Made by a program: the position numbers and the translations under genes. This document shows positions 159-51,997 of a stretch of 64,000 nucleotides of DNA, piece after piece. The notes below the pieces were generated by a model. That model was not told where the DNA came from, did not search any database, and worked only from the letters and a program-made list of their open reading frames with translations. The stretch's first letter is position 1, and every line of letters starts with the position of its first letter. Source of the stretch: Deltaproteobacteria bacterium (lineage in GTDB: Bacteria > UBA10199 > GCA-002796325 > JACPFF01); contig JACPFF010000006.1 of the NCBI GenBank assembly GCA_016183065.1, forward strand, positions 1 through 64,000, in the 5' to 3' direction.

Positions 159-3100
159 ATGCGATGGGGACGCCGGTTGATCGGGCTGGTGCTGCTGAGC
201 GGGGGCTTGGGTGTGACGTTCTCCGCGGGGGCCACGACGAGCTATTACGGGGCCACCCCCGGGAGCCCCTTCGCGCAATACGTTGGCAATAATGTCTACG
301 GCTGTGGGTATACGTTTGGGGCGGCCGAGATCGCCCAAATTCCGGCGCTGCAGGGCTGTGCGATTACGGCCCAGCACTGGTATCTGCTCCTCGGCGGGGG
401 CGCCCAGGTCCCCATCGAACAGGGGCTGGGCCTTCAGCTCGGCTCGGGGACCATCGTGCTCGATGCGCAGTGGTCCCCCACCGCGCTGGATCTCTATGTG
501 AATCAGTCGATCGCCTGTAGCTATCCCCTGCCGATCGCCATGCAAGTCACGTCGACATGCCCGGGGGATGCCGCCCCGAAGCCGTCGCCCTCCAAAGAGG
601 AGTCCCAGCCGACCCCGAAGCCCTCGTGCAAGGACAAACCGTCGGTCAAGGTCTGCGTCGATCTCAACCAAAACGGCATCGGGGAGTTGAGCGGTGGAGC
701 CGTCTACGAGCGCTGTGCGTATGACGAGCTGGCGCAGACCCTCCCGCACCATTTTCTCACGGCGCCCGCAAAGCTATGTGGGGAAGAGTGTCAGACCTTC
801 AAAGCCATCGCGCAGTGTCCGGATTTTGATAAAAATGGCCAGGCGGATTTCTCCGGACAATGGATCACAGACAATATCTGCGACACGCTCTACGACTATG
901 TCCACAAGGGCGATGTCTATAATGGCATTCCCTATCAATACGGCTATATGTATCGGCTGAAGGGGGGGTGCCAGCCCTATGAGTGTACGACCAATCCCGA
1001 TGTCGCGATCTGTCCGGATGCCGATCAAGACGGATTTAAAGACACGGCGGGGAGCTGGTGGCCGGACTGTGCGTATCAACAGGCCTCGGTGAACGGCCAA
1101 TCTGCGCAGGGGTGGACACTGCCGAAACACTATTTTCTGGGCGATGATCACGGCTGCGGTCTGCTCGATTGCGATCCGACGGACAAGGCGATCCATCCGG
1201 GCCCCGACGGGCTCCTCGTGTGGGCGTGTCAGGATCATGATGGCGACGGATTTGCCAATGTGCCCGCCTCAAATCAGACCAACATGTGTGCCGCCGGCAA
1301 GGGGCTGCAGGCGCCGGCGCCCCCGGGCTATTTCTGGGGCTATCCGGATTGCCAACCGTCCGATTGCGACGATGACCCCACGGACGACATGCCGGGCGAG
1401 CCGCCGGCCAAGGCCAAATGGCAGCAAGTCGCTGCGTGGCGGGACTTGGACGGGGACGGATATTTCGGGGGGACGAAGCTCTACCTCTGCATCGGCCAGG
1501 AGCTCCCGCCGGGCTATACCGACGTGGCCCCCCCCGCGAATGCCGTCGATTGCAACGATTGGCCTGCCACCCCGTGGGCCGCGGAGACGAACCCCGAGAC
1601 GGTCTGGGTATTTGATGCCGATGGCGACGGGTGTCCGGGGACGTATGAGTATCCGTCGTGCACGACCCCCACGATCGATCCCGTGAAGTTTCCCCAGGGC
1701 GCGTGGATCCGGAAGGCCCAGATCGCGCAGGACCACCTTGAGACCGATTGCGAGGAGACGAATCCGAAGCGCTGCGTGCCAGACTGGTACGCCGATGCCG
1801 ATCGGGATGGGGTGGGGACGGTCTGGTGCAATCACGGGTGTCAGCCAGATCCCAAAGCGGCCGCCTGTCAAGCGGCCCTCACGGAGTGCGCGGCGACCAA
1901 TGCGCTCCTCGCGACCGCGACGGGCGCGGCGATCACTGTCGGCGCGGGCGCCGCGGGGGCGCCCCCGAGCAGCCTGTGGGCCACGATGTTGCAGCCAGCC
2001 GGGGCGGCCTCCTCTGCACAACGGCCCGGCGGCCCCCTGCCGCGGGCCGTGCCGCGCGCCGGCGCTCGCATTGAGATCGCGCAGGATTGGCACGTGCTGG
2101 GGCCGGGCGGGGGCCCCGCGGCGGCCCCATGGTGGGCCACGACACCGTGGTCGGCCGGCGCGGCCGGGGTCTTTGCCGCCACCGCGCCCGCCGCGCTGGG
2201 GAGTGCGGCCACGGCCCTGCCGGCCCCCTACGCCACCACCCCCGGCGATTGTGATCCCTGCAACCAAAACATCACCGATGGCAATCAGGAGGTTTATTTA
2301 GATATCGATGGGGATGGCTATGGGGATGGGGCGTCATTTACCCTCCCCTGTCACGCGTACGAAGAAAAGAAGCGCGACGAGACGCAAGCGAGCCTGCTGA
2401 AACCGGAGTGTGTGGAGCAGGCCACGCAAATCATGAAGCAACATCAACTCTCCGGATTAGATGCCGAAGCGGTCTGCACGCAGGCCATTGCCAGCGATAC
2501 CCTCTGGGTCGCCATGAAAAAGGGTGACGGCCTTGATCTCTCACCAGAGATATCGCCGGACATCACCTGGGGATTCGATGGAGATAGTGATGGATTTATC
2601 CGGGCTGCAGGAAGTAGCCCCATGCCCCTGTCGGAACTTTTTCTCCAGTGTTTTACGCCCTCAAGCCATTTATTCACCTTCAACGCCGCACATCCCCCGT
2701 GCCAAAAGGGAACCTTCGATTTCTGCCAGGCATATTGGAGTTCCCCAGAGTGCATAGAACTGTTCTACACGATGCAATTTGCGAAATATAATGGCTTTGC
2801 CGATTGCAACGATACCGATCCGCTCAACCTGAACACTTTTAGCGAAGATCTCGACGGCGACACCGTGCCCAATGCCAACACACTGTATTGTTCACTACCA
2901 AGCGGCGTTCCCGTAGTGGCCTATTCCCATGAAGGCGATTGCGAGGACCTGAATGCGCAAGTGGGCGAGGCTGAAAAAAAATACGCCGATGATGATGGCG
3001 ACGGCTTCGGGGATCCCCATCGAAAATGGTCATTGTGTCCGGGAGATCCGCACCCGGAAGGGGTCGTGTTGGTAGACCATCCCAACGACTTCGCTGATTA

Positions 3101-4544
3101 TTATCCGTCTCCCTCAGTAATAGAAAACATGGCCTTTCAGGCGGACGGAATATTCTATCTGGAAAAATCAACGGGATTTAAAGAACTCTGTTTTTTTGAA
3201 GACAGTGAGTGGGAGACTCTCGGAGAAGGTCCCAAAATATATTATTATGGGTGTCTGCCAATGGTCCTGTCTGAATTGCTGGCCAAATCCCTCTTATACC
3301 CGGAGAATATCCCTGTCCTTAATGAAGCTGAACTGAGCAGTGATGAAAATGGAACAGCTTTTTATATTAAAAACCTGACAACCCATGAGGTCATCGCGAA
3401 CTATCTTCAATTGAGATATGGCAATCTTCCGCTCATTATTGAAAACCCGCTCACAAAAAACAAGGTGATCATGATTAATGGCACGGTTTACGATACGACC
3501 GTTAAATCACTCAAAGAAGGCTTGGGAGGCTGCATCGCACCCGAGGGGCTGTTGGGGGTTCCGATTCAGCATCACGTTTTATCCGATATCGAGATGTCTC
3601 TGTTTAGTGATCTGGGATACTCAAAATCATTTGTATTTGAAAACATCAAAGAATGTCTTTTATACACGCATGGTATCTATAATATAAAAGGAACCAAGTA
3701 TCTTATCAAAATGGAAAGTGATGACTCGGGCCAATTTTTGACGGCTCATGCATTGGGCGTTCTAGCTGATGCAGTGCCAACACTGAGCGTACCAATTGAT
3801 TTTAAATATCTGAATGACACCGACAAGGACGGTCTCGCGAATGAGCGGGAAGATATCAACACGAATGGTATTGTGGAGAGCGGAGAAACCGATCCATGGA
3901 ATCCAGATACCGATGGAGACGGGCATGAGGATGGTGTAGAAGTTGTTGACGGCGATACGACTGCTGCACTCAATCCCCAATTGCAGCCCTATGCAGATTC
4001 CTGTTTTTTTCTGGTTCCCCAAATATTGACAAATGCAGAGAAGGAAATCTGGGATTCCCGAAAGGCTATGGCCTTAAAGGTGGCGCCGATTGTCTGGAAA
4101 AAAATACAGAAGACCATTCCCGTTGCTTTTTTTAGTGGGCGCATGCTGGAGGAGGCTATTCAGGTGGCCATTCCGGCGTATATTCGGATCAAGCCGAAGT
4201 GCAATGCTACGACATACAGCTACGCATCAGGAGGTTACGTAAAAGTTGAAGGAGCGTGGGGGTTACAGGCGAGCACCTACCCGAATGATGAAGTCTACAT
4301 TGATTTGAAAGCGATTCTGAAAGACTATCCACCAATGTCTATCGAGGCGTTTAAATCAATGAAGGATCCATGGAATACACATCTACTTGACACATTTCTC
4401 CACGAAGCCATGCATGCCGCTCTCGATTTTACAATGTTTTCAGAATCTAACAAGGACGAGGTAGCATTGGGGCATCTCTATATTTACAGCATTCTTTCAA
4501 ATGGAAAATATAAGACTCTAGAAGGAATTCAAGCATTTGAATAA
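159..4544 (+). CDS. Large secreted Ca-motif (MopE/TSP3-like) protein with C-terminal HEAMH motif
   Basis: This 1461-residue protein opens with a signal peptide (MRWGRRLIGLVLLSGGLG, small residues to about 25). That is why ATG 159 is preferred to in-frame starts upstream. About ten acidic calcium-type loops follow between residues 280 and 1270 (for example DHDGDG, DLDGDG, DADGDG, DIDGDG, DDDGDG), many next to DCDD/DCND cysteine motifs as in MopE-type metal-binding repeats. Residues about 581-696 are an Ala/Gly/Pro-rich insert. DTDKDG and DTDGDG loops at about 1219-1267 look like thrombospondin type-3 repeats. HEAMH at about 1415-1419 fits an HExxH zincin site, with acidic residues following (NKDEVALG). 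Base composition falls from very GC-rich before about 2.3 kb to AT-rich after it, which suggests a mosaic origin. Function is unknown; a cell-surface or secreted protein, possibly a protease, is inference. Confidence 0.8.
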   Translation: MRWGRRLIGLVLLSGGLGVTFSAGATTSYYGATPGSPFAQYVGNNVYGCGYTFGAAEIAQIPALQGCAITAQHWYLLLGGGAQVPIEQGLGLQLGSGTIVLDAQWSPTALDLYVNQSIACSYPLPIAMQVTSTCPGDAAPKPSPSKEESQPTPKPSCKDKPSVKVCVDLNQNGIGELSGGAVYERCAYDELAQTLPHHFLTAPAKLCGEECQTFKAIAQCPDFDKNGQADFSGQWITDNICDTLYDYVHKGDVYNGIPYQYGYMYRLKGGCQPYECTTNPDVAICPDADQDGFKDTAGSWWPDCAYQQASVNGQSAQGWTLPKHYFLGDDHGCGLLDCDPTDKAIHPGPDGLLVWACQDHDGDGFANVPASNQTNMCAAGKGLQAPAPPGYFWGYPDCQPSDCDDDPTDDMPGEPPAKAKWQQVAAWRDLDGDGYFGGTKLYLCIGQELPPGYTDVAPPANAVDCNDWPATPWAAETNPETVWVFDADGDGCPGTYEYPSCTTPTIDPVKFPQGAWIRKAQIAQDHLETDCEETNPKRCVPDWYADADRDGVGTVWCNHGCQPDPKAAACQAALTECAATNALLATATGAAITVGAGAAGAPPSSLWATMLQPAGAASSAQRPGGPLPRAVPRAGARIEIAQDWHVLGPGGGPAAAPWWATTPWSAGAAGVFAATAPAALGSAATALPAPYATTPGDCDPCNQNITDGNQEVYLDIDGDGYGDGASFTLPCHAYEEKKRDETQASLLKPECVEQATQIMKQHQLSGLDAEAVCTQAIASDTLWVAMKKGDGLDLSPEISPDITWGFDGDSDGFIRAAGSSPMPLSELFLQCFTPSSHLFTFNAAHPPCQKGTFDFCQAYWSSPECIELFYTMQFAKYNGFADCNDTDPLNLNTFSEDLDGDTVPNANTLYCSLPSGVPVVAYSHEGDCEDLNAQVGEAEKKYADDDGDGFGDPHRKWSLCPGDPHPEGVVLVDHPNDFADYYPSPSVIENMAFQADGIFYLEKSTGFKELCFFEDSEWETLGEGPKIYYYGCLPMVLSELLAKSLLYPENIPVLNEAELSSDENGTAFYIKNLTTHEVIANYLQLRYGNLPLIIENPLTKNKVIMINGTVYDTTVKSLKEGLGGCIAPEGLLGVPIQHHVLSDIEMSLFSDLGYSKSFVFENIKECLLYTHGIYNIKGTKYLIKMESDDSGQFLTAHALGVLADAVPTLSVPIDFKYLNDTDKDGLANEREDINTNGIVESGETDPWNPDTDGDGHEDGVEVVDGDTTAALNPQLQPYADSCFFLVPQILTNAEKEIWDSRKAMALKVAPIVWKKIQKTIPVAFFSGRMLEEAIQVAIPAYIRIKPKCNATTYSYASGGYVKVEGAWGLQASTYPNDEVYIDLKAILKDYPPMSIEAFKSMKDPWNTHLLDTFLHEAMHAALDFTMFSESNKDEVALGHLYIYSILSNGKYKTLEGIQAFE

Positions 4545-17623: not shown

Positions 17624-17757
17624 GGTCTCCTCCTTTGTTCCCGATCAGCATAGCACTTAAATCCGGCGTGAAAATGCCATTTTTCAGACCAGCGAATCAA
17701 GTTTTTTGATTTTTTTCATCGCAAATTCGAACACATCCTGATGGGGACTATTTTTTG

Positions 17758-19125
17758 GGGTCATCGTAAAACCGAGTGGGTAAATTGAAGGGATTGAAGC
17801 GCCTGCAAGTCGCTCTAGAAGCGGCTAAGAAAAAGATTGAAGGGGTCCAGAAACCTGTAGGACTGAGGGATGCGAAAGAAGAGATGCCTTGGGGATGAAT
17901 ATCGGTTCCCCGGATTGTATCCCAAGTCAGGCGTTCAGAGGATTTTTGGAGACCCGAAAGCCCGCAGTATTGTTCTCATCCGTCGTCAAAAAAAACGAGA
18001 TGCGGTTCTTGCGGAACCTTCCATCGGAGCTTCTACGACCGGAAGATGCGTTGGGTACGGGACTTGTCGTGCGGGGATGCTCGGATCTATCTGGACCTGG
18101 AGATTCGACGGGTCTTTTGCCGGAGCTGCGGGAAGGTGAGGCAGGAGAAGCTCGATTGGTTGGCCGACAATCCGTTCTACACGAAGAGATTCGCTTTCTT
18201 TGTCGGGAGACGGTGCCGGGCGATGACGATCCAGGACGTGGCCAAGGAGACCCGTCTGGACTGGCACACGATCAAGGAGTTGGAGAAGCAGTACATGAAG
18301 GAACAGCTCCGGAGGACGGGGACGCCGGCGCCGAAGGTCATCGGCATCGACGAGATCTCGATCAAAAAAGGGCATACATATCGGATCGTGGTGAGCGATC
18401 TGGAGAGGCGGCGTCCCATCTGGTTCGGTGGAATGGACCGGTCGGAAGAAAGCATGGATCTGTTTTACCAATCCCTGGGGTCCAGGAAGGCCAAGAAGAT
18501 CCGGTCGGCGGTGATGGACATGTGGAAGGCTTTCGAAAAGTCGGCGAAGAAGAATATCCCGGAGGCCGCAATCCTTTACGACAAGTTCCATGTGATGCGG
18601 CATTTGGGCGAGGCGATGGATACGGTGAGGAAGAAGGAATACGGGAGGCTTGCGGGAAAAGACCGGTCGTTTATCAAGGGGCAGAAGTACACGTTACTTT
18701 CGCGGAAGGAAAACCTGGATCTTCCGGGTCGTCAATCGCTTCGGAAGCTCTTGAAGGCGAACAAGAGGCTGAATACGGCCCATCTTTTGACGGAGACCTT
18801 TGGGCAGTTGTGGAGTTACGAGACGGAAGGCTGGGCGCGTCGGTTCTTCGACAACTGGAAAGCATCGTTGAAGTGGCAGAGGCTCAAGCCCTACGAAGAG
18901 TTCGCCGAGATGATCGAGCGGCATTGGGAGGGGATCGCGGCCTACTGTCATCCCGAAAACAAAGTGGCCTTGGGATTTGTGGAAGGCTTAAACAACAAGA
19001 TCCGGGTGATCCAACGACGGGCCTACGGTCTACGAGACGAAGAATATCTTCGGCTCAAGATCCTGACTTGTATGCTCAAGGGGATTTGAAACCGTGAAAA
19101 TCACCCACTCGGAAACGCGAAGACC
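17758..19125 (+). mobile_element. ISL3-family insertion sequence
   Basis: Imperfect terminal inverted repeats bound the element: GGGTCATCG...CCGAGTGGGTAAAT at 17758-17785, and the reverse complement of 19098-19125, which reads GGTCTTCGCG...CCGAGTGGGTGA. The GGTCTTCG-type end is characteristic of ISL3 elements. One transposase gene fills the right part. About 288 bases of leader precede the transposase ATG. No clear 8-bp target duplication is visible, so the exact ends may be off by one or two bases. Confidence 0.8.
18046..19089 (+). CDS. ISL3-family DDE transposase
   Basis: The 347-residue product carries the DDE residues in VIGIDEISIKKGHTYR, AILYDKFHVMRHL and LGFVEGLNNKIRVIQRRAYG, as in the DDE_Tnp_ISL3 family. 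Its N terminus (MRWVRDLSCGDARIYLDLEIRR then CRSCG) is only the second half of the usual zinc ribbon. The first knuckle, CGSCGTFHRSFYDRK, is encoded in frame immediately upstream (about 18001-18045), but no standard start codon is seen there. The real start may be non-canonical, or the gene may be 5'-damaged. Confidence 0.85.
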   Translation: MRWVRDLSCGDARIYLDLEIRRVFCRSCGKVRQEKLDWLADNPFYTKRFAFFVGRRCRAMTIQDVAKETRLDWHTIKELEKQYMKEQLRRTGTPAPKVIGIDEISIKKGHTYRIVVSDLERRRPIWFGGMDRSEESMDLFYQSLGSRKAKKIRSAVMDMWKAFEKSAKKNIPEAAILYDKFHVMRHLGEAMDTVRKKEYGRLAGKDRSFIKGQKYTLLSRKENLDLPGRQSLRKLLKANKRLNTAHLLTETFGQLWSYETEGWARRFFDNWKASLKWQRLKPYEEFAEMIERHWEGIAAYCHPENKVALGFVEGLNNKIRVIQRRAYGLRDEEYLRLKILTCMLKGI

Positions 19126-19134
19126 TAAATAAAA

Positions 19135-19986
19135 CTATCGTTTTTTCTTTCCGGACACTCTTGTCTTTTTATTCACACCATTCTTTTTCCTCACCGTTTT
19201 ATTTTTTGGCACAATGCGTGTAGATGAAATGCTCTTTTTTCCAGGTGCGATAACACCACCGGAATCCAATTCAATTCCAAACAACTGTGACAGATTTTTA
19301 GATTTAAGAACTTTGTCAGTTTGTTTACCACTTGTGGTGATTCCAGTTGTCCCTGCGGCAATGAGTTCCAAGTGATCCACATGACGCAGCTCGAAAAAGA
19401 GTTCCGGCTTTTCATCCAAACGTGCGCCGACACCATAAAGTGCTGCGGCCACATGCTTACACATGACAGCACCATCCGGACAAGAGCAATCCATCGAAAT
19501 TTGTTGGGGAGAAGGAAATAAACCTTTTTGTTTGTCGGTAATGACGCCCATGACAGCTTTTGAAAACCTTCCCTGCAACAGTTCAATCAGTGAGTCGATT
19601 TGTCCTGAGCAGTTTTTGATTAAAGATTGCCAACGATCTTTTTCGAGAGCCCGAATGACAATCTCAACAGTGTAAAGCGACGAACCGTTGACCAGCGCTG
19701 TGACTTTACCTTTGCCGATTTGTAAATCCAAGACGGAACCGTTGCGTAAATAACTGCGTCCACGCGGGAGGCGGTTTTCAAAATCGCTATAGGCTTCGAG
19801 ATTACTGCACCAAGATTTACCCCAGAACGTTTTGGCAATCGTCCGGCCTTCGAGTTGAACGGGACTAATGGATCGTCCCTTTTTCTGCAGGGCTTTGATT
19901 TTTTTAGCGGCCTGTAGCTTTCGTTTAGCCACCGATACATAAGGCGCAAAACCTCCGTAACTGTAATAACCATAAGACATATTCAC
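19135..19986 (-). CDS. SWIM zinc-finger protein
   Basis: The 283-residue protein has a SWIM motif CSCPDGAVMCKH (CxCx6CxH) at about residues 165-176, preceded by QISMD. The N terminus is SYGYYSYGGFAPYVSVAKRK, and the last 40 residues are very rich in Lys and Arg. SWIM proteins of this type often sit beside SNF2-like helicases in bacteria, as here, where the helicase gene lies one base upstream in the same operon. A DNA- or nucleoprotein-binding partner of the helicase is a reasonable inference. The gene is AT-rich compared with the chromosome. Confidence 0.85.
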   Translation of the reverse strand: MNMSYGYYSYGGFAPYVSVAKRKLQAAKKIKALQKKGRSISPVQLEGRTIAKTFWGKSWCSNLEAYSDFENRLPRGRSYLRNGSVLDLQIGKGKVTALVNGSSLYTVEIVIRALEKDRWQSLIKNCSGQIDSLIELLQGRFSKAVMGVITDKQKGLFPSPQQISMDCSCPDGAVMCKHVAAALYGVGARLDEKPELFFELRHVDHLELIAAGTTGITTSGKQTDKVLKSKNLSQLFGIELDSGGVIAPGKKSISSTRIVPKNKTVRKKNGVNKKTRVSGKKKR

Positions 19987-19987
19987 C

Positions 19988-22762
19988 TCAGCTTTCTTCT
20001 ATGGCACTCTTCAAATCAAGCGAAACAAGTTTGATGAGGTCTGTGTTAGACATTTCTGTCAGCACAGCATCTTGACTGCCCTCTAAAATTTCTTGAGACA
20101 ATTTCTGTTTTGATTTGATGAGTTCATCAATACGTTCTTCAATTGTTCCGCGACAAATAAATTTATGCACCAGCACGTTCTTTTTTTGCCCGATACGAAA
20201 AGCGCGGTCGGTGGCTTGGTTTTCCACCGCAGGGTTCCACCATCGATCAAAGTGAATCACGTGCGAAGCCGCCGTTAAATTCAAACCTGTACCTCCCGCT
20301 TTGAGCGAAAGCACAAAATGGGGAGGGCCTTGTTCCTCTTGGAATTCTTTAACCATATCACCACGGTTTTTAACAGTGGTTTCTCCATGCAAAACAAGAC
20401 CTGTTCTAGCAAAAATACCGGCCAGGAAGCGCGAGAGTGGTTCCGTGATTTCACGAAACTGCGTGAAGACCAAAAGCTTTTCCTGCTTGGCGGCAATCTC
20501 CTCACAAATCTCGCGCAGCCGGTTAAACTTACCGCTATCTTGTGGGGCATATTTGCCGTCCGAAAACCATTGGGATGGATGATTGCAAATCTGTTTGAAA
20601 CGCATGAGCGAGGCAAGAATAATGCCGCGTCGCTGAATGCCGTCCGCTTCGTCTAATTGTCTGGCCAAGGTATCCACCGATTGCTGATACAGCGCCGCTT
20701 GCGCTTTGGTGAGCGGGCAGTAAACCGAGAGTTCGGTCTTGTCTGGTAAATCAGAGATAATACGTTTGTCGGTTTTGAGGCGTCGTAACAAATACGGTCG
20801 CACCAAATCACGCAACGCACCATACGGCTGGGTCGCATCATTCTTTTCGCAAGCTTTAACAAATTTTTCAAATGCCTTGGCCGAACTCAAAAGCCCTGGG
20901 CACAGAAAGTCATAAATCGACCACAAATCGGAGAGATGATTTTCAACCGGCGTACCCGTCAATGCCAAACGATGACGACTTTTCAAGTCTTTGACTGCAC
21001 GAGTTTGTTTGGTTCCTGGGTTTTTAATGGCCTGTGCCTCATCAATGACAATAACATTCCAAGAAGTTTTTTTCAGCCAATTCAGTCGCCCTAAAAAACC
21101 ATAAGTTGTGATGACAACATCTGTGTCTTGCAAAATCTTTTGCGAAGGATTTTCGATATCACCGGTTTTTTGACCATCAGTTCCAATGGCTGATGGATGA
21201 GCAATAAAATATTTAAGGCTAGGGGCAAATTTTTCGATTTCGGATTTCCAATTTCCAATGAGCGAGGCCGGAACAACCAGCAGATTGATTCTCGATTCAT
21301 TTTGAGAAACTTTCATTTTTTCTTTTTGTAGCATCAAAAATAACGCAATTACCTGCACTGTTTTACCAAGACCCATATCGTCAGCCAAGCACGCACCAAG
21401 TCCTAATCGATTGAGGAACCACAGCCACTGCACTCCAATTTGCTGGTAAGGTCGCAGTGTGGTTTTGAGTTCTGCCCCAAGAGCAGTATTTGACTTTATT
21501 TTGCCCTGTGGGTCTTTAAGTTCGGCGAGCTGTTTTGCCAAAACTTCCCCGGCAACCACTTGGGACCAATCTGCAGAAGCCTGAGAAAATAATTCTCCAT
21601 CATCGCCGCCAATGGCTGCTCCCGAAAGCAATCGCATCCCTTCGATAAACGATAAGCCATCTTCAGCGTGACGTTCAACGGTCTTCCAATGTTTGAGCGC
21701 TTCTTTGAGCTTGTCCTTGTCGACCTCTGTCCATTGGCCACGTAGCAAAACTAACCCATTGGTGCCTGCAAGAATTTGCCGCAATTCCTCCTCACTCAAT
21801 TTTTCACCGCCCAAAGTGACAGAAACAGAAAAATCCAATAGCGCGTTGGCTCCAACTGCTGACATTCCCTTGTTGCCGATAGTCACCGAAACTTGAGGCC
21901 TTGATGGCTGTTTTGGCTTCCACCAGTCTGGAATACGCACAACAACACCTGATGATTCCAGCACAGGAATATTTTTTAGAAATTGATGAGCCTCTTGCGG
22001 TGTCCAGGCGAGCGGGTGATAAACCTCTCCGGAGTCAACAAGCCCTTTGATAAATTCGCTTTGGCTGGCTGCTTTTTGAACGGGCGTTAAGAGTTGCAAA
22101 AGCTGAACCTTGTTTTTGGCTCCGGCATATTCTTCCAGCGCTTTTCCCAAGGGAATGTGTTGTGCCTTTCCTTGCATCGAGAGTTTGTGTGTGTAGGTGG
22201 CCAGAAAGGCAAAGGGCGCCACAGGGTTATTTTTATTCTCGGCCAAATGAAAACAAACGCGCCCGATAAGATTCAAAACAGAACCATGACTTTCAAAAAA
22301 AGACTGAACAGGGTTTTCTGTGCTTTTTGAAAGGGAGGCAAGAAATCCGCTCAACTCTTTTTGAAAAGCAGTTTGCAATTGATCCCAAATTTGAGTGAGC
22401 ACATCCACGTTTAAATATTCGGCTCCCATCATGGGCGGTGGTGTTGTGGCGAATGTTGTCAATTCGTCGTGAGGCACGGGGATTTGAATGGTAATAGCCA
22501 AGTCAGGATTTGTCAGTTCCGGTAATCTGCAGAGATGAGAAAAAAACAGTCTGGAAAAATCAATCCAATAAGAAATATCCGGTGGCAAGTCATCAGAGGT
22601 TGGAGATAAACCAAGATACAAAAGTCCGACGATGCCACTACGCGCAAAAGTCAAGCGAATCTTATCTGACAAGTTCTTGCCCGCATCGGGCAGAAGATGC
22701 ACCATGCCTTGCGGCGAAAGCGCGATTGAAAAATGTTCGTGCTCCATAATCTGATTTGTCAC
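19988..22762 (-). CDS. SNF2/Rad54-family DEAD-like ATPase (helicase)
   Basis: The 924-residue protein has all SNF2 motifs: DDMGLGKTVQ at about 459-468, LVVPASLIGNWKSEI, VIDEAQAIKN at about 567-576, LTGTPVENHLSDLWSIYDFL, LVFTQFRE, and HFDRWWNPAVENQATDRAFRIGQ near residue 845. The N-terminal 400 residues resemble the bacterial SNF2-associated region. Such enzymes translocate on double-stranded DNA. It starts from GTG 22762, overlapping the upstream ATPase gene (GTGA), and is followed by the SWIM gene. The gene is AT-rich and probably horizontally acquired. Confidence 0.92.
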   Translation of the reverse strand: MTNQIMEHEHFSIALSPQGMVHLLPDAGKNLSDKIRLTFARSGIVGLLYLGLSPTSDDLPPDISYWIDFSRLFFSHLCRLPELTNPDLAITIQIPVPHDELTTFATTPPPMMGAEYLNVDVLTQIWDQLQTAFQKELSGFLASLSKSTENPVQSFFESHGSVLNLIGRVCFHLAENKNNPVAPFAFLATYTHKLSMQGKAQHIPLGKALEEYAGAKNKVQLLQLLTPVQKAASQSEFIKGLVDSGEVYHPLAWTPQEAHQFLKNIPVLESSGVVVRIPDWWKPKQPSRPQVSVTIGNKGMSAVGANALLDFSVSVTLGGEKLSEEELRQILAGTNGLVLLRGQWTEVDKDKLKEALKHWKTVERHAEDGLSFIEGMRLLSGAAIGGDDGELFSQASADWSQVVAGEVLAKQLAELKDPQGKIKSNTALGAELKTTLRPYQQIGVQWLWFLNRLGLGACLADDMGLGKTVQVIALFLMLQKEKMKVSQNESRINLLVVPASLIGNWKSEIEKFAPSLKYFIAHPSAIGTDGQKTGDIENPSQKILQDTDVVITTYGFLGRLNWLKKTSWNVIVIDEAQAIKNPGTKQTRAVKDLKSRHRLALTGTPVENHLSDLWSIYDFLCPGLLSSAKAFEKFVKACEKNDATQPYGALRDLVRPYLLRRLKTDKRIISDLPDKTELSVYCPLTKAQAALYQQSVDTLARQLDEADGIQRRGIILASLMRFKQICNHPSQWFSDGKYAPQDSGKFNRLREICEEIAAKQEKLLVFTQFREITEPLSRFLAGIFARTGLVLHGETTVKNRGDMVKEFQEEQGPPHFVLSLKAGGTGLNLTAASHVIHFDRWWNPAVENQATDRAFRIGQKKNVLVHKFICRGTIEERIDELIKSKQKLSQEILEGSQDAVLTEMSNTDLIKLVSLDLKSAIEES

Positions 22763-24177
22763 GTCTTTCCGAAGAGAGCCCGTACTGTGATATATTTTTG
22801 TTTTTTACTTCTTGGAACATCCGGCAACGTATAAGCCAGTTTTCTTTCTTTAATAAGACGTGGAAGCAATTCTTTTCGGACATAGTCCAAACTAAGGCCG
22901 GTCTCCGCAATAATTTGGTCCCGGCTTTTTGCTGTTTTGCAAAATTCCAAAATCTTCAGTTCAGATGACGAAATATCATCATGATCATGGGGGGTATCAT
23001 GGGGGGTATCATGGGGGGTATCATGGGGGGTATCATGACGGGCAGCATCAGCCGGTTTTGCGCCAAAGGTGACTTTAAATCCTTGGTCTTCTTCTAGAAT
23101 TGGTTCGGGATGTCCGGCGGCCTTTGTCTCCTCAATCATCTTCATCACGCCGCTTCCCCATTGCTCAATGAGCCCCACATAAAAGAACATTTTGGCAATC
23201 AGTTTGTTTTTGGGAAATGAGCGGTGTTCTTTTTTCAATTTTTCAACGGACAAGTTCTGAGGCAGGTCTCCCGGATTCCAGACCAGAATATGATCATCGT
23301 AAATTCGAATTTGGGTGTGACCGGTTTCTGCATAATCCCTGTGGCAAACGGCATTGGTGACAGCCTCACGCAGAGCATCAAGCGGATATTCCCAAATCAC
23401 ATCTCTTTGAGGTTTGCCGGTCATTCTGAATTCAGTTTGCAGGCGGTCACGAAAATACTGCATGGTATTTTCAACTTGATCAAAGAGTGTTTCTTCAACT
23501 TCACGATCATCCACAATCAGGGTTTCCGATCTAAAACGTCCGATTTTTATGACGGCATGCGAATAAAATTTTTGTGGATTCTTACCAAACAGAAGCACAG
23601 CAGCTCGGGTGAGTTTGCCATCTTTCATCAAGTCCAGTTTTCCCAACAATTCCGGTATTGAAATAGAGGCTGGAATGGGTCTTCTTCCAATTTCGTTTGC
23701 CTTGCGAATGAAAGTTTTGATTTTGGTTGTGCTGATGTCAGCGATTTTGGCACGAGGCTCTGGCAACGCATCCCATGTGACACCGATATGATCCAAAACC
23801 AGGCGGGTTAATTCGTTGGCTCCCATCTGCCGCGTTGTACTGCCAACACGACGATAGGCACGCCCACGATACATGACAGGCTTGATCTTGTTTTCCGAAA
23901 CCTGAATTAAAATGATGTTTTTTTCATCGACTCGGACCGCCTTGATGGATGGCTGTAGCCCCGTGCCTTGATCGATTTGGTTGGCCATGTCCTTGAGTAC
24001 GGACTGATCGGCTTTGACTCCAACCACAACACCCTTGTCGTTGACGCCAACAAACACAATGCCCCCCTTGGTATTGGCAAGGGCCGAAAGCGACTCAAGC
24101 ACCTCACGGGAAAACGACTGCTTGAATTCAACGATTTCCGATTCACCGGACTTAAGCATTTTTGTGATGTTGTCCAT
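22759..24177 (-). CDS. AlbA_2/Schlafen-type ATP-binding protein with C-terminal winged helix
   Basis: The 472-residue protein opens with the AlbA_2 (AAA_4, Schlafen-like) domain: GESEIVEFKQSF, then ALANTKGGIVFVGVNDKGVV. The middle contains the GHKL-like segment DALREAVTNAVCHRDY and the G-box-like LIEQWGSGVMKMIEE. Four HDTP repeats (from 22987-23034) link this part to a C-terminal winged-helix-like region (ILEFCKTAKSRDQIIAETGLS). Longer starts at 24189 or 24213 are possible, and none has a clear ribosome site. It is the first gene of the AT-rich three-gene unit. Family members are found as regulators or defence-associated proteins; the role here is unknown. Confidence 0.8.
   Translation of the reverse strand: MDNITKMLKSGESEIVEFKQSFSREVLESLSALANTKGGIVFVGVNDKGVVVGVKADQSVLKDMANQIDQGTGLQPSIKAVRVDEKNIILIQVSENKIKPVMYRGRAYRRVGSTTRQMGANELTRLVLDHIGVTWDALPEPRAKIADISTTKIKTFIRKANEIGRRPIPASISIPELLGKLDLMKDGKLTRAAVLLFGKNPQKFYSHAVIKIGRFRSETLIVDDREVEETLFDQVENTMQYFRDRLQTEFRMTGKPQRDVIWEYPLDALREAVTNAVCHRDYAETGHTQIRIYDDHILVWNPGDLPQNLSVEKLKKEHRSFPKNKLIAKMFFYVGLIEQWGSGVMKMIEETKAAGHPEPILEEDQGFKVTFGAKPADAARHDTPHDTPHDTPHDTPHDHDDISSSELKILEFCKTAKSRDQIIAETGLSLDYVRKELLPRLIKERKLAYTLPDVPRSKKQKYITVRALFGKT
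22987..23034 (-). repeat. Four tandem 12-bp units encoding HDTP repeats
   Basis: The 12-base unit ATGGGGGGTATC (plus-strand reading) is repeated four times without mismatch and encodes His-Asp-Thr-Pro repeats in the AlbA_2 protein. Each unit contains a six-G run, and the length is a multiple of three, so slippage would change the linker length without breaking the frame. Confidence 0.85.
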
Positions 24178-24213
24178 TTTTTGGCGCATTTGAAATGAAA
24201 CATATACCACCAA

Positions 24214-24439
24214 ATACCAGAAATCAAAGAGCTATTTCGTTTTTCAGATCTGAAACTCACCTTAGTTTACGGTCATTGCATAATACCTCATGTGCGGTCG
24301 CGTTGTGCCGCATTCAAATGGGAAAAATGTGATGACTATCAGCGCGGACGGCATGCCCACGACCTTCATCAGCCTCGCCAGCTCGCGCTTCCGCCGCGCC
24401 CTCCACCCGGCCTTCATCAACGAAGTTGTCGGTTTCTCC
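24214..24439. other. Gap between island operon and IS remnant
   Basis: The first part is AT-rich and should hold the promoter of the minus-strand operon, although no convincing -35/-10 pair was picked. From about 24290 the composition returns to GC-rich. Short open frames on both strands here (including one starting MCGRVVP) do not match a family over any length and are not called. Confidence 0.3.
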
Positions 24440-24633
24440 CCGGTCGTAGAAACTCGGGTAGGTGACTCCGTAAGACCCACAGGCTGTAGTTTTTGACGAC
24501 GCCGGAGCGTGCCACCTCTCGTCCCCGGATTGCCAAGAATCCCCTGAACCCTCGCTTTAGGATGAAATCCGGGGAACCGATACGCATCCCCAAGGCCTCT
24601 CTTTTTTTGCCTCCCTTATTCATCCAGGTTTTT
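24440..24633 (-). mobile_element. Decayed inverted copy of an ISL3-type 5' region
   Basis: Read on the minus strand, this stretch parallels the left part of the ISL3 element at about 17850-18045. Shared runs include GGCCTTGGGGATG (element: TGCCTTGGGGATG), TATCGGTTCCCCGGATT and GTCGTCAAAAA, and the same 13-base offset leads to a zinc-knuckle frame (CGSYGVTYPSFYDRG against CGSCGTFHRSFYDRK). Similarity stops after FYDR, and no terminal inverted repeat is left. It is a truncated relative in opposite orientation to the intact IS, on the far side of the AT-rich operon. Confidence 0.65.
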
Positions 24634-50806: not shown

Positions 50807-51997
50807 ATGGATCCGCGGACGAATCCCTATGCCCCAGGCGCAGGAACAATTCCTCCTGAATTAACAGGGCGTGATGAAATTCTTGAAAAGGGAGCCATTG
50901 CGTTAGATCGATGTCGAAATGGCCTTTCGTCCCGTGGCCTCTTGTTGGTCGGTCTGCGAGGCGTGGGAAAAACCGTCTTGCTCACTCGTATCTCACGAGA
51001 GGCCGAAGCAAATGGTTTTGCTGTGGTTTCGATTGAAACACCAGAAAAGCGCTCACTACCGGCATTGCTCATCCCGACCCTGAGAACTGTTCTGCTCAAA
51101 CTCGATAAGGTGGTTGCCGCAGGAGATTTAGGGAAACGTGTATTGCGGGTCCTTGGTGGTTTTGTTGGAGCAATGAAGCTCAAGTACCACGATGTCGAAT
51201 TTGGAGTAGATCTGGGAAATGAGCGGGGAGTCGCTGATTCAGGTGATCTAGAATACGACCTGGCGGCTCTTTTTACCGAAATAGGGAAAGTGGCAAAAGC
51301 AAAGAAGACCGCTCTGGTGCTTTTTATCGATGAAATTCAATATATAGAAGAAGAGCAATTTGCTGCACTGATTGTGGCTCTCCACAAATGTGCGCAGAAC
51401 CAGCTCCCCGTTATCCTGATAGGCGCTGGTTTGCCACAGCTGGTCGGCCAAGCAGGACGCGCAAAATCTTACGCTGAGAGATTATTTGAATATCCCAAGA
51501 TTGGGCCGTTGAGTCAGTCTGCAGCAAGAGAAGCACTTGAGGCACCTGCCGCAAAATTGAATATATTCTATCAAAAGAAAGCTCTGGATGATATTTTGTT
51601 TCAGACACAATCCTATCCATATTTTTTGCAAGAGTGGGGTAAGCACAGTTGGCAGTGCGCAAAACAATCTCCAATTACTCCAAATGACGTACAATCTGCC
51701 ACCGAGTTGGCCATTTCGGAACTTGACGCCAGTTTTTTTCGAGTGCGATTTGACCGTGTGACTCCAGCAGAAAAAAAATACCTCCGCGCAATGGCGGAAC
51801 TTGGTCCGGGGCCTCACAGATCAGGAGATATTGCGACTCTTCTACAGAGAGAAGTTCAGGCTGTTGCGCCCACTCGAGCGACACTCATTGGTAAAGGGAT
51901 GATCTACAGTCCATCCCATGGAGACAATAGTTTCACAGTACCGTTATTCGATGGTTATATGAAACGGGTTATTCCAGATTTCAACACGTCGTCCTGA
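50807..51997 (+). CDS. Stand-alone AAA ATPase (second copy, different subfamily)
   Basis: The 396-residue protein begins MDPRTNPYAPGAGTIPPELTGRDEIL, with Walker A GLRGVGKT at residues 49-56 and Walker B LVLFIDEIQYI with DE at 175-176. A sensor-like segment LPVILIGAGLPQL follows, and the C-terminal 80 residues (TPAEKKYLRAMAELGPGPHRSGDIATLLQ) look like a winged helix. The layout is that of ORC/Cdc6-like accessory ATPases. Lower GC than its neighbours and a solo position suggest recent acquisition. It overlaps the next gene convergently by 17 bases. Confidence 0.8.
   Translation: MDPRTNPYAPGAGTIPPELTGRDEILEKGAIALDRCRNGLSSRGLLLVGLRGVGKTVLLTRISREAEANGFAVVSIETPEKRSLPALLIPTLRTVLLKLDKVVAAGDLGKRVLRVLGGFVGAMKLKYHDVEFGVDLGNERGVADSGDLEYDLAALFTEIGKVAKAKKTALVLFIDEIQYIEEEQFAALIVALHKCAQNQLPVILIGAGLPQLVGQAGRAKSYAERLFEYPKIGPLSQSAAREALEAPAAKLNIFYQKKALDDILFQTQSYPYFLQEWGKHSWQCAKQSPITPNDVQSATELAISELDASFFRVRFDRVTPAEKKYLRAMAELGPGPHRSGDIATLLQREVQAVAPTRATLIGKGMIYSPSHGDNSFTVPLFDGYMKRVIPDFNTSS

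Follow-up and report, generated by a model that had tools for sequence, protein, structure and literature searches.

An SNF2-SWIM gene pair of foreign composition with an AlbA_2 neighbour: a candidate accessory DNA-remodelling module

The SWIM-associated SWI2/SNF2 pair of the SsoRad54 type, in which an SNF2 ATPase is accompanied by a SWIM protein, has already been described, also from mobile systems (PMC5512222). The SNF2 proteins HepA and YwqA of B. subtilis are discussed as RNA-polymerase/replication-conflict factors and are called poorly characterized (PMC7385302); by analogy, therefore, a housekeeping role may still apply to SNF2-SWIM. A pair of the known 'SWIM-associated SNF2/SsoRad54' kind, which is widespread and in bacteria poorly understood, forms the core of an operon in the 64,000 nucleotides of deltaproteobacterial DNA analyzed here (the window). 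The pair is preceded by a gene for an AlbA_2 protein, and for the combination AlbA_2-SNF2-SWIM nothing was found in the searched literature. What is new is the exchangeable AlbA_2 partnership, the SNF2-SWIM core being already known.

The operon consists of only three genes and is flanked by the LapA/RpsA and HK/OEP regions. Domain searches agreed with the first-pass annotation, made from the letters, as to the three minus-strand genes, their order AlbA_2-SNF2-SWIM and their families. The first gene (22759-24213, minus strand) encodes AlbA_2, with an SLFN_AlbA_2 domain (PF04326, 2.8e-20) and a HATPase_c_4 domain (PF13749, 2.1e-21); the second (19988-22762, minus strand) an SNF2-family protein with N-terminal DUF3670 (SNF2-rel_dom 3.6e-66, DUF3670 1.4e-33, Helicase_C 1.3e-18); and the third (19135-19986, minus strand) a SWIM zinc-finger protein with a basic tail. 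The GTGA overlap that had been read between AlbA_2 and SNF2 is genuine in the window. The one-base gap between SNF2 and SWIM holds only with a GTG start for SWIM, for which the ATG of M3 (~19980), with AGGTGA just 5' of it, is the likelier start, because M3 hardly varies in the family alignment. For AlbA_2 the ATG of M13 (~24177) is more likely to be the start than TTG.

The GC content is near 0.60 in most of the surrounding window and falls to 0.44-0.47 in the island (0.444, 0.457 and 0.456 for SWIM, SNF2 and AlbA_2, respectively). That GC lies much below that of the flanks is borne out by GC3, which is 0.419, 0.439 and 0.458 for the three genes in the same order and 0.71-0.77 in the seven host genes measured; the GC3 of the ISL3 transposase (see below) is host-like at 0.76. 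A second low-GC gene (about 0.47), encoding an AAA_16 ATPase (50807-51997, plus strand), is probably a further recent acquisition. In a 1504-codon ORF with many Asp-type calcium-binding-like repeats the GC falls from about 0.66 to 0.45 in the 3' half (window 2500-4544), which suggests that the gene is a mosaic with a metallopeptidase-like end (HEAMHAAL).

The other five genomes of the order gave no SNF2 orthologue; one was present in 10 of 385 genomes of a diverse set and, in another phylum, in 28 of 395. The host assembly itself comprises 1.97 Mb in 30 contigs at 88.8% completeness. The locus is thus neither shared by all close relatives nor matched to its surroundings in GC. SNF2-SWIM pairs of ~50-56% identity are present on conjugative Bradyrhizobium and other plasmids. 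The GC3 gap, the absence of SNF2 from the five order relatives, the patchy distribution and the occurrence of the same pair on conjugative plasmids together make a horizontal origin of the island, as first proposed, well supported. To the right of the island the relatives keep the order HK-OEP-next two genes; beside this block the five relatives have no left-flank gene, and the island therefore sits at a synteny break. For the same reason no clean empty site was found in these five genomes. A phage origin was rejected, since the viral_contigs scan gave no SNF2 relative and the matches in phage records were all partial, each spanning less than 80% of the query.

The island is bracketed by insertion sequences, as had been noted. 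On its left lies an intact ISL3-family element (17757..19125, plus strand) with matching terminal inverted repeats GGTC..CCGAGTGGGT read from the sequence at both ends, whose transposase gene (18046-19089, plus strand; DDE_Tnp_ISL3, E 4.5e-66) scores 282 bits against an NCBIfam cut-off of 180 bits. On its right lies what is left, decayed and inverted, of the 5' region of a second ISL3-type sequence (24440..24631, minus strand), in which 192 bp (24631-24440) are 70.3% identical to 17851-18042 of the intact element (E 9e-20). One further transposase copy, at G000:C25, was all that the genome yielded; it shows 80% protein and 75% DNA identity. Inverted ISL3-type sequences to the left and right of the island would be expected if the three genes had been carried as a unit by an IS composite transposon. 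This is very improbable, however, because the right copy is a 192-bp fragment that lacks an end and is only 70% identical to the left one and because no target-site duplication was seen when it was looked for around the intact element; a composite transposon defined by two like, complete IS copies and a target-site duplication was therefore rejected. The two copies differ in age or origin, and the mobilizing event is not readable from them.

The solved structure closest to the SNF2 protein is 1z63, a helicase of the snf2/rad54 family (E 2e-128). The motifs DDMGLGKT and DEAQ are 100% conserved in 37 orthologues, and both Walker A and Walker B are intact. By analogy with its family (PMC5512222) we infer that the window SNF2 acts as an ATP-driven translocase on double-stranded DNA. 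SNF2 and SWIM are indeed often paired: of the 41 other SNF2 loci, 40 have a SWIM gene next to SNF2 or close to it, and plasmids of Bradyrhizobium, Variovorax, Mesorhizobium and Azospirillum are among these loci. Other genes can intervene: a Bro-N/DinD-like gene lies between SNF2 and SWIM in L097 (678-1559) and an antitoxin/PIN pair in L143 (10321-11057), and RhuM and Fic genes lie beside or between the two in L146 (12650-13657) and L145 (6205-7272), respectively.

In the SWIM protein C167, C169, C176 and H178 are invariant among the 25 orthologues of the family alignment, the CxC..CxH motif of the window protein being CSCPDGAVMCKH (PF04434). Its residue 172 is glycine, where most orthologues have the tryptophan of a CPDWA motif. 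The AlphaFold model matches ZSWIM8 over 94 residues (Z 8.7, 3.1 Å), and VIA-align brought up nothing else above background; for the fold of the rest of the protein no match at E below 0.001 was obtained with Foldseek. Members of the family have a basic tail. A C-terminal HTH is present in about one third of the orthologues or more and is, in many of the SWIM partners (e.g. L143, L144, L181, L184, L190, L204, L205), XRE-like or of another type. The SWIM proteins of the window and of its class relatives have no such HTH; an AlbA_2 with a winged helix is the neighbour there instead.

When the 41 other SNF2 loci were searched with six different AlbA_2 queries, AlbA_2 was found in G026 and G008 only; with the window, it thus lies beside SNF2-SWIM at all three loci of the host class and at none of the 39 loci elsewhere (Fisher, about 1e-4), where absence refers to the available flank only, several contigs being short. 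In the reverse search none of the 71 AlbA_2 loci from genome_contigs had a full-length SNF2 nearby. The recurrent three-gene combination suspected in the first-pass annotation is therefore supported in part, namely within the class, and on the two counts a general three-gene system outside the class was rejected. Gene order and spacing vary between the three loci. In G026 the order is AlbA_2-SWIM-SNF2 on one strand, with TAA, a 5-nt gap and ATG at the junction, and in G008 AlbA_2 is convergent to SWIM-SNF2 at about 20 bp distance. A topoisomerase VI A/Spo11-like gene (L096 8215-9357, minus strand) is a neighbour of both AlbA_2 (GHKL) and SNF2-SWIM in G008. On the E. coli IncC plasmid pNDM102337 (L212) AlbA_2 overlaps with TrlF on its upstream side and with HsdS on its downstream side, which is another partnership that recurs in the family.

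The class SNF2s form a single group in the tree with moderate support (82/65; 1 change). Their AlbA_2 partners lie apart at three positions in the tree, divided by well-supported branches (3 changes), and form one group in 0% of the bootstrap trees. One SNF2 lineage, three AlbA_2 branches and differing gene orders together argue that AlbA_2 joined on separate occasions; judged from the trees, non-orthologous AlbA_2 partners appear to have been acquired or replaced repeatedly beside one lineage of the pair. G008 does have an orthologue of the window AlbA_2 (62-63% identical), which is encoded elsewhere and not at its SNF2 locus. Repeated recruitment to a widespread and poorly understood pair gives SNF2-SWIM a concrete partner to test.

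The same neighbourhoods could have arisen by two unrelated acquisitions, one of a stand-alone SNF2-SWIM remodeller of repair, transcription or recombination and the other of a hitch-hiking mobile AlbA_2 that inserts near mobile genes. AlbA_2 genes are numerous in the class (with E up to 1e-20, 26 matches spread over 14 of the 46 class genomes), their kin and contexts are very varied (e.g. TrlF-AlbA_2-HsdS on the E. coli plasmid), and Fic, RhuM, PIN/antitoxin and DinD-like genes too occur beside or within the pair. This explanation has to account for the fact that AlbA_2 is the immediate neighbour at three of three class loci, co-oriented at two of them with an overlap or 5-nt spacing. The chance of having an AlbA_2 as immediate neighbour is about 0.002 per genome (0.0014-0.0023 by a simple neighbour null, which is generous since mobile genes cluster in islands, and such clustering would raise the figure). 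For this reason the adjacency is suggestive of function and not proof of it, and we consider two unrelated acquisitions a serious possibility, although not the probable one.

The AlbA_2 model (pLDDT 90) comprises a Schlafen-fold domain (residues 13-144), a Bergerat/GHKL domain (about 204-392) and a winged helix (411-483). Residues 13-144 match SAMD9 and SLFN5 (Z about 10; SAMD9 tRNase domain, Z 10.1), the GHKL domain matches SpoIIAB and histidine kinases (Z about 10) and the winged helix NolR (Z 9.3), and 3lmm matches the first two domains over 360 residues (Z 24.9). E24, E29 and D59 align with the site of the Schlafen protein SLFN11, whose catalytic residues we take to be E209, E214 and D252, and the three carboxylates are intact. 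In the AlbA_2 partner of G008 the position of E29 is occupied by K, one Schlafen glutamate thus being lost. None of E283, N287, G353 and G355 varies among 38 members, which is consistent with ATP binding by AlbA_2. A Fic-like C-terminal domain is common to 7 of the 38 members, and the C-terminal tail is therefore an exchanged module.

Between the ATPase domain and the winged helix of the window AlbA_2 the linker is encoded by a perfect 12-bp tandem repeat, CATGATACCCCC (HDTP; 22984-23048, minus strand). Perfect or near-perfect linker repeats were found in 28 of 87 full-length AlbA_2 proteins (e.g. at L003, L011, L020, L030, L033, L058-L062, L095, L100, L102, L104-L106, L113 and L114) and in 2 of 486 other ORFs; none was seen in the homologues from Rhodothermus, Pseudosulfitobacter and the E. 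coli plasmid. Nearly all units are 12 bp/4 aa long; the units of one gene are practically the same, those of different genes mostly unrelated, about 19 in total (HDTP, TPQA, PESQ, NDTV, DKSV, TREK, EQVS, TPQV, TSQK and others). Copy number differs between near-identical proteins (TSQK 3 vs 4, TPQV 6 vs 7, and VNVNAAK 1 vs 3 at about 99% core identity), most of these proteins coming from metagenome assemblies. Tetrapeptide repeat linkers of AlbA_2 were not found described in the searched literature, and the arrays are perhaps the most surprising element of the locus. Independent 12-bp repeat linkers at one fixed place would offer a natural example of how repeats drive the evolution of a linker, here within a regulator that binds DNA.

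The explanation that we favour, with confidence that is about evenly balanced, is that the island carries a foreign accessory DNA-remodelling module, composed of an SNF2-SWIM core and a repeatedly gained AlbA_2 acting as ATP-gated nucleic-acid-binding regulator or effector. The SNF2 protein would move along double-stranded DNA at the expense of ATP, and SWIM, with its zinc finger and basic tail, would bind DNA as its partner and so target or anchor it. The pair has, in the host class, repeatedly gained a non-orthologous AlbA_2-GHKL-winged-helix neighbour, whose winged helix might dock either on the operon's own promoter or on the site where the translocase acts. Binding of ATP to the Bergerat domain would switch AlbA_2, and the Schlafen-fold domain would bind RNA, which the window copy may also cleave. 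The three proteins would then be coupled physically or functionally. Against this explanation, 39 of the 42 pair loci are without AlbA_2, so that the pair works without it, and the three co-occurrences all come from one class, in which the single origin of SNF2 is moderately supported. The G008 partner, with K in place of E29 and not co-oriented, indicates that neither nuclease activity nor co-transcription is general. More tentatively, AlbA_2 might be an exchangeable third component, recruited at least three times, that serves as an ATP-gated RNA-cleaving or regulatory effector and whose hypervariable linker tunes the reach to an exchangeable winged helix.

A role of the module in conflict with phages or plasmids is conceivable. 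In anti-phage defence SNF2-SWIM might scan or strip incoming DNA and signal to AlbA_2, whose Schlafen-type domain would cut tRNA or other RNA and thus abort infection. The module is mobile, foreign and patchy, an SNF2 core is also part of DISARM, Zorya and Dpd, and the window AlbA_2 retains the three carboxylates in a fold like that of the SAMD9 tRNase domain. Schlafen-family RNases are among the most widespread auxiliary endoRNases in BREX neighbourhoods (PMC12839542), and a preprint is cited in that article for bacterial Schlafens in anti-phage defence. However, of the 95 proteins encoded around the pair loci most are ordinary (radical SAM, TPR, transport) and few match defence proteins, AlbA_2 is missing from most pairs and E29 from the G008 partner, and the viral_contigs scan gave no relative. 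The defence function proposed at first thus draws no support from context: partner genes of known defence systems are absent, and the PADLOC and NCBIfam matches reflect the generic SNF2 core. We consider it possible but rather doubtful. An anti-restriction or establishment function, in which an element-borne module helps an incoming plasmid or island to protect or remodel its DNA, a role that has been suggested for the SNF2 proteins of phages and conjugative elements, would fit the presence of the pair on conjugative Bradyrhizobium plasmids and the discussion of SNF2 ATPases in mobile-element DNA transfer (PMC5512222). It is improbable in view of the lack of an adenine methylase adjoining the pair in the window and of the many examined orthologues that adjoin ordinary genes.

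Compared with known systems, the window operon shares with DISARM, Zorya and Dpd only the similarity of the SNF2 core; it scores far below the NCBIfam cut-offs, and the partner genes are absent. DISARM was rejected at 101.6 bits for DrmD (cut-off 950 bits), drmA/B/C and the methylase not being in the three-gene operon; Zorya type I at 289.7 bits for ZorD (1500 bits), with no other Zor genes beside SNF2; and Dpd at 45.5 bits for DpdE (500 bits). With the SsoRad54-type pair (1z63) it has in common the DUF3670/SNF2 core, the neighbouring SWIM gene and the presence in mobile systems, but the first gene of the window operon is AlbA_2-GHKL-winged-helix, and its SWIM protein is without the C-terminal HTH of many orthologues. 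With the Schlafen/SAMD9 RNases AlbA_2 shares the fold of residues 13-144 and the three aligned carboxylates; unlike them it is a putative RNase, known from sequence and model, that is fused to GHKL and winged-helix domains and whose SNF2-linked relative in G008 is short of one carboxylate. Corynebacterium DIP2311 (3lmm) and a Nitrosomonas RecG-related protein (2kyy) are AlbA_2/HATPase_c_4 regulators, the former with the same domain order and fold; the window AlbA_2 differs from both in being linked to SNF2-SWIM and in having an expanded 12-bp repeat linker.
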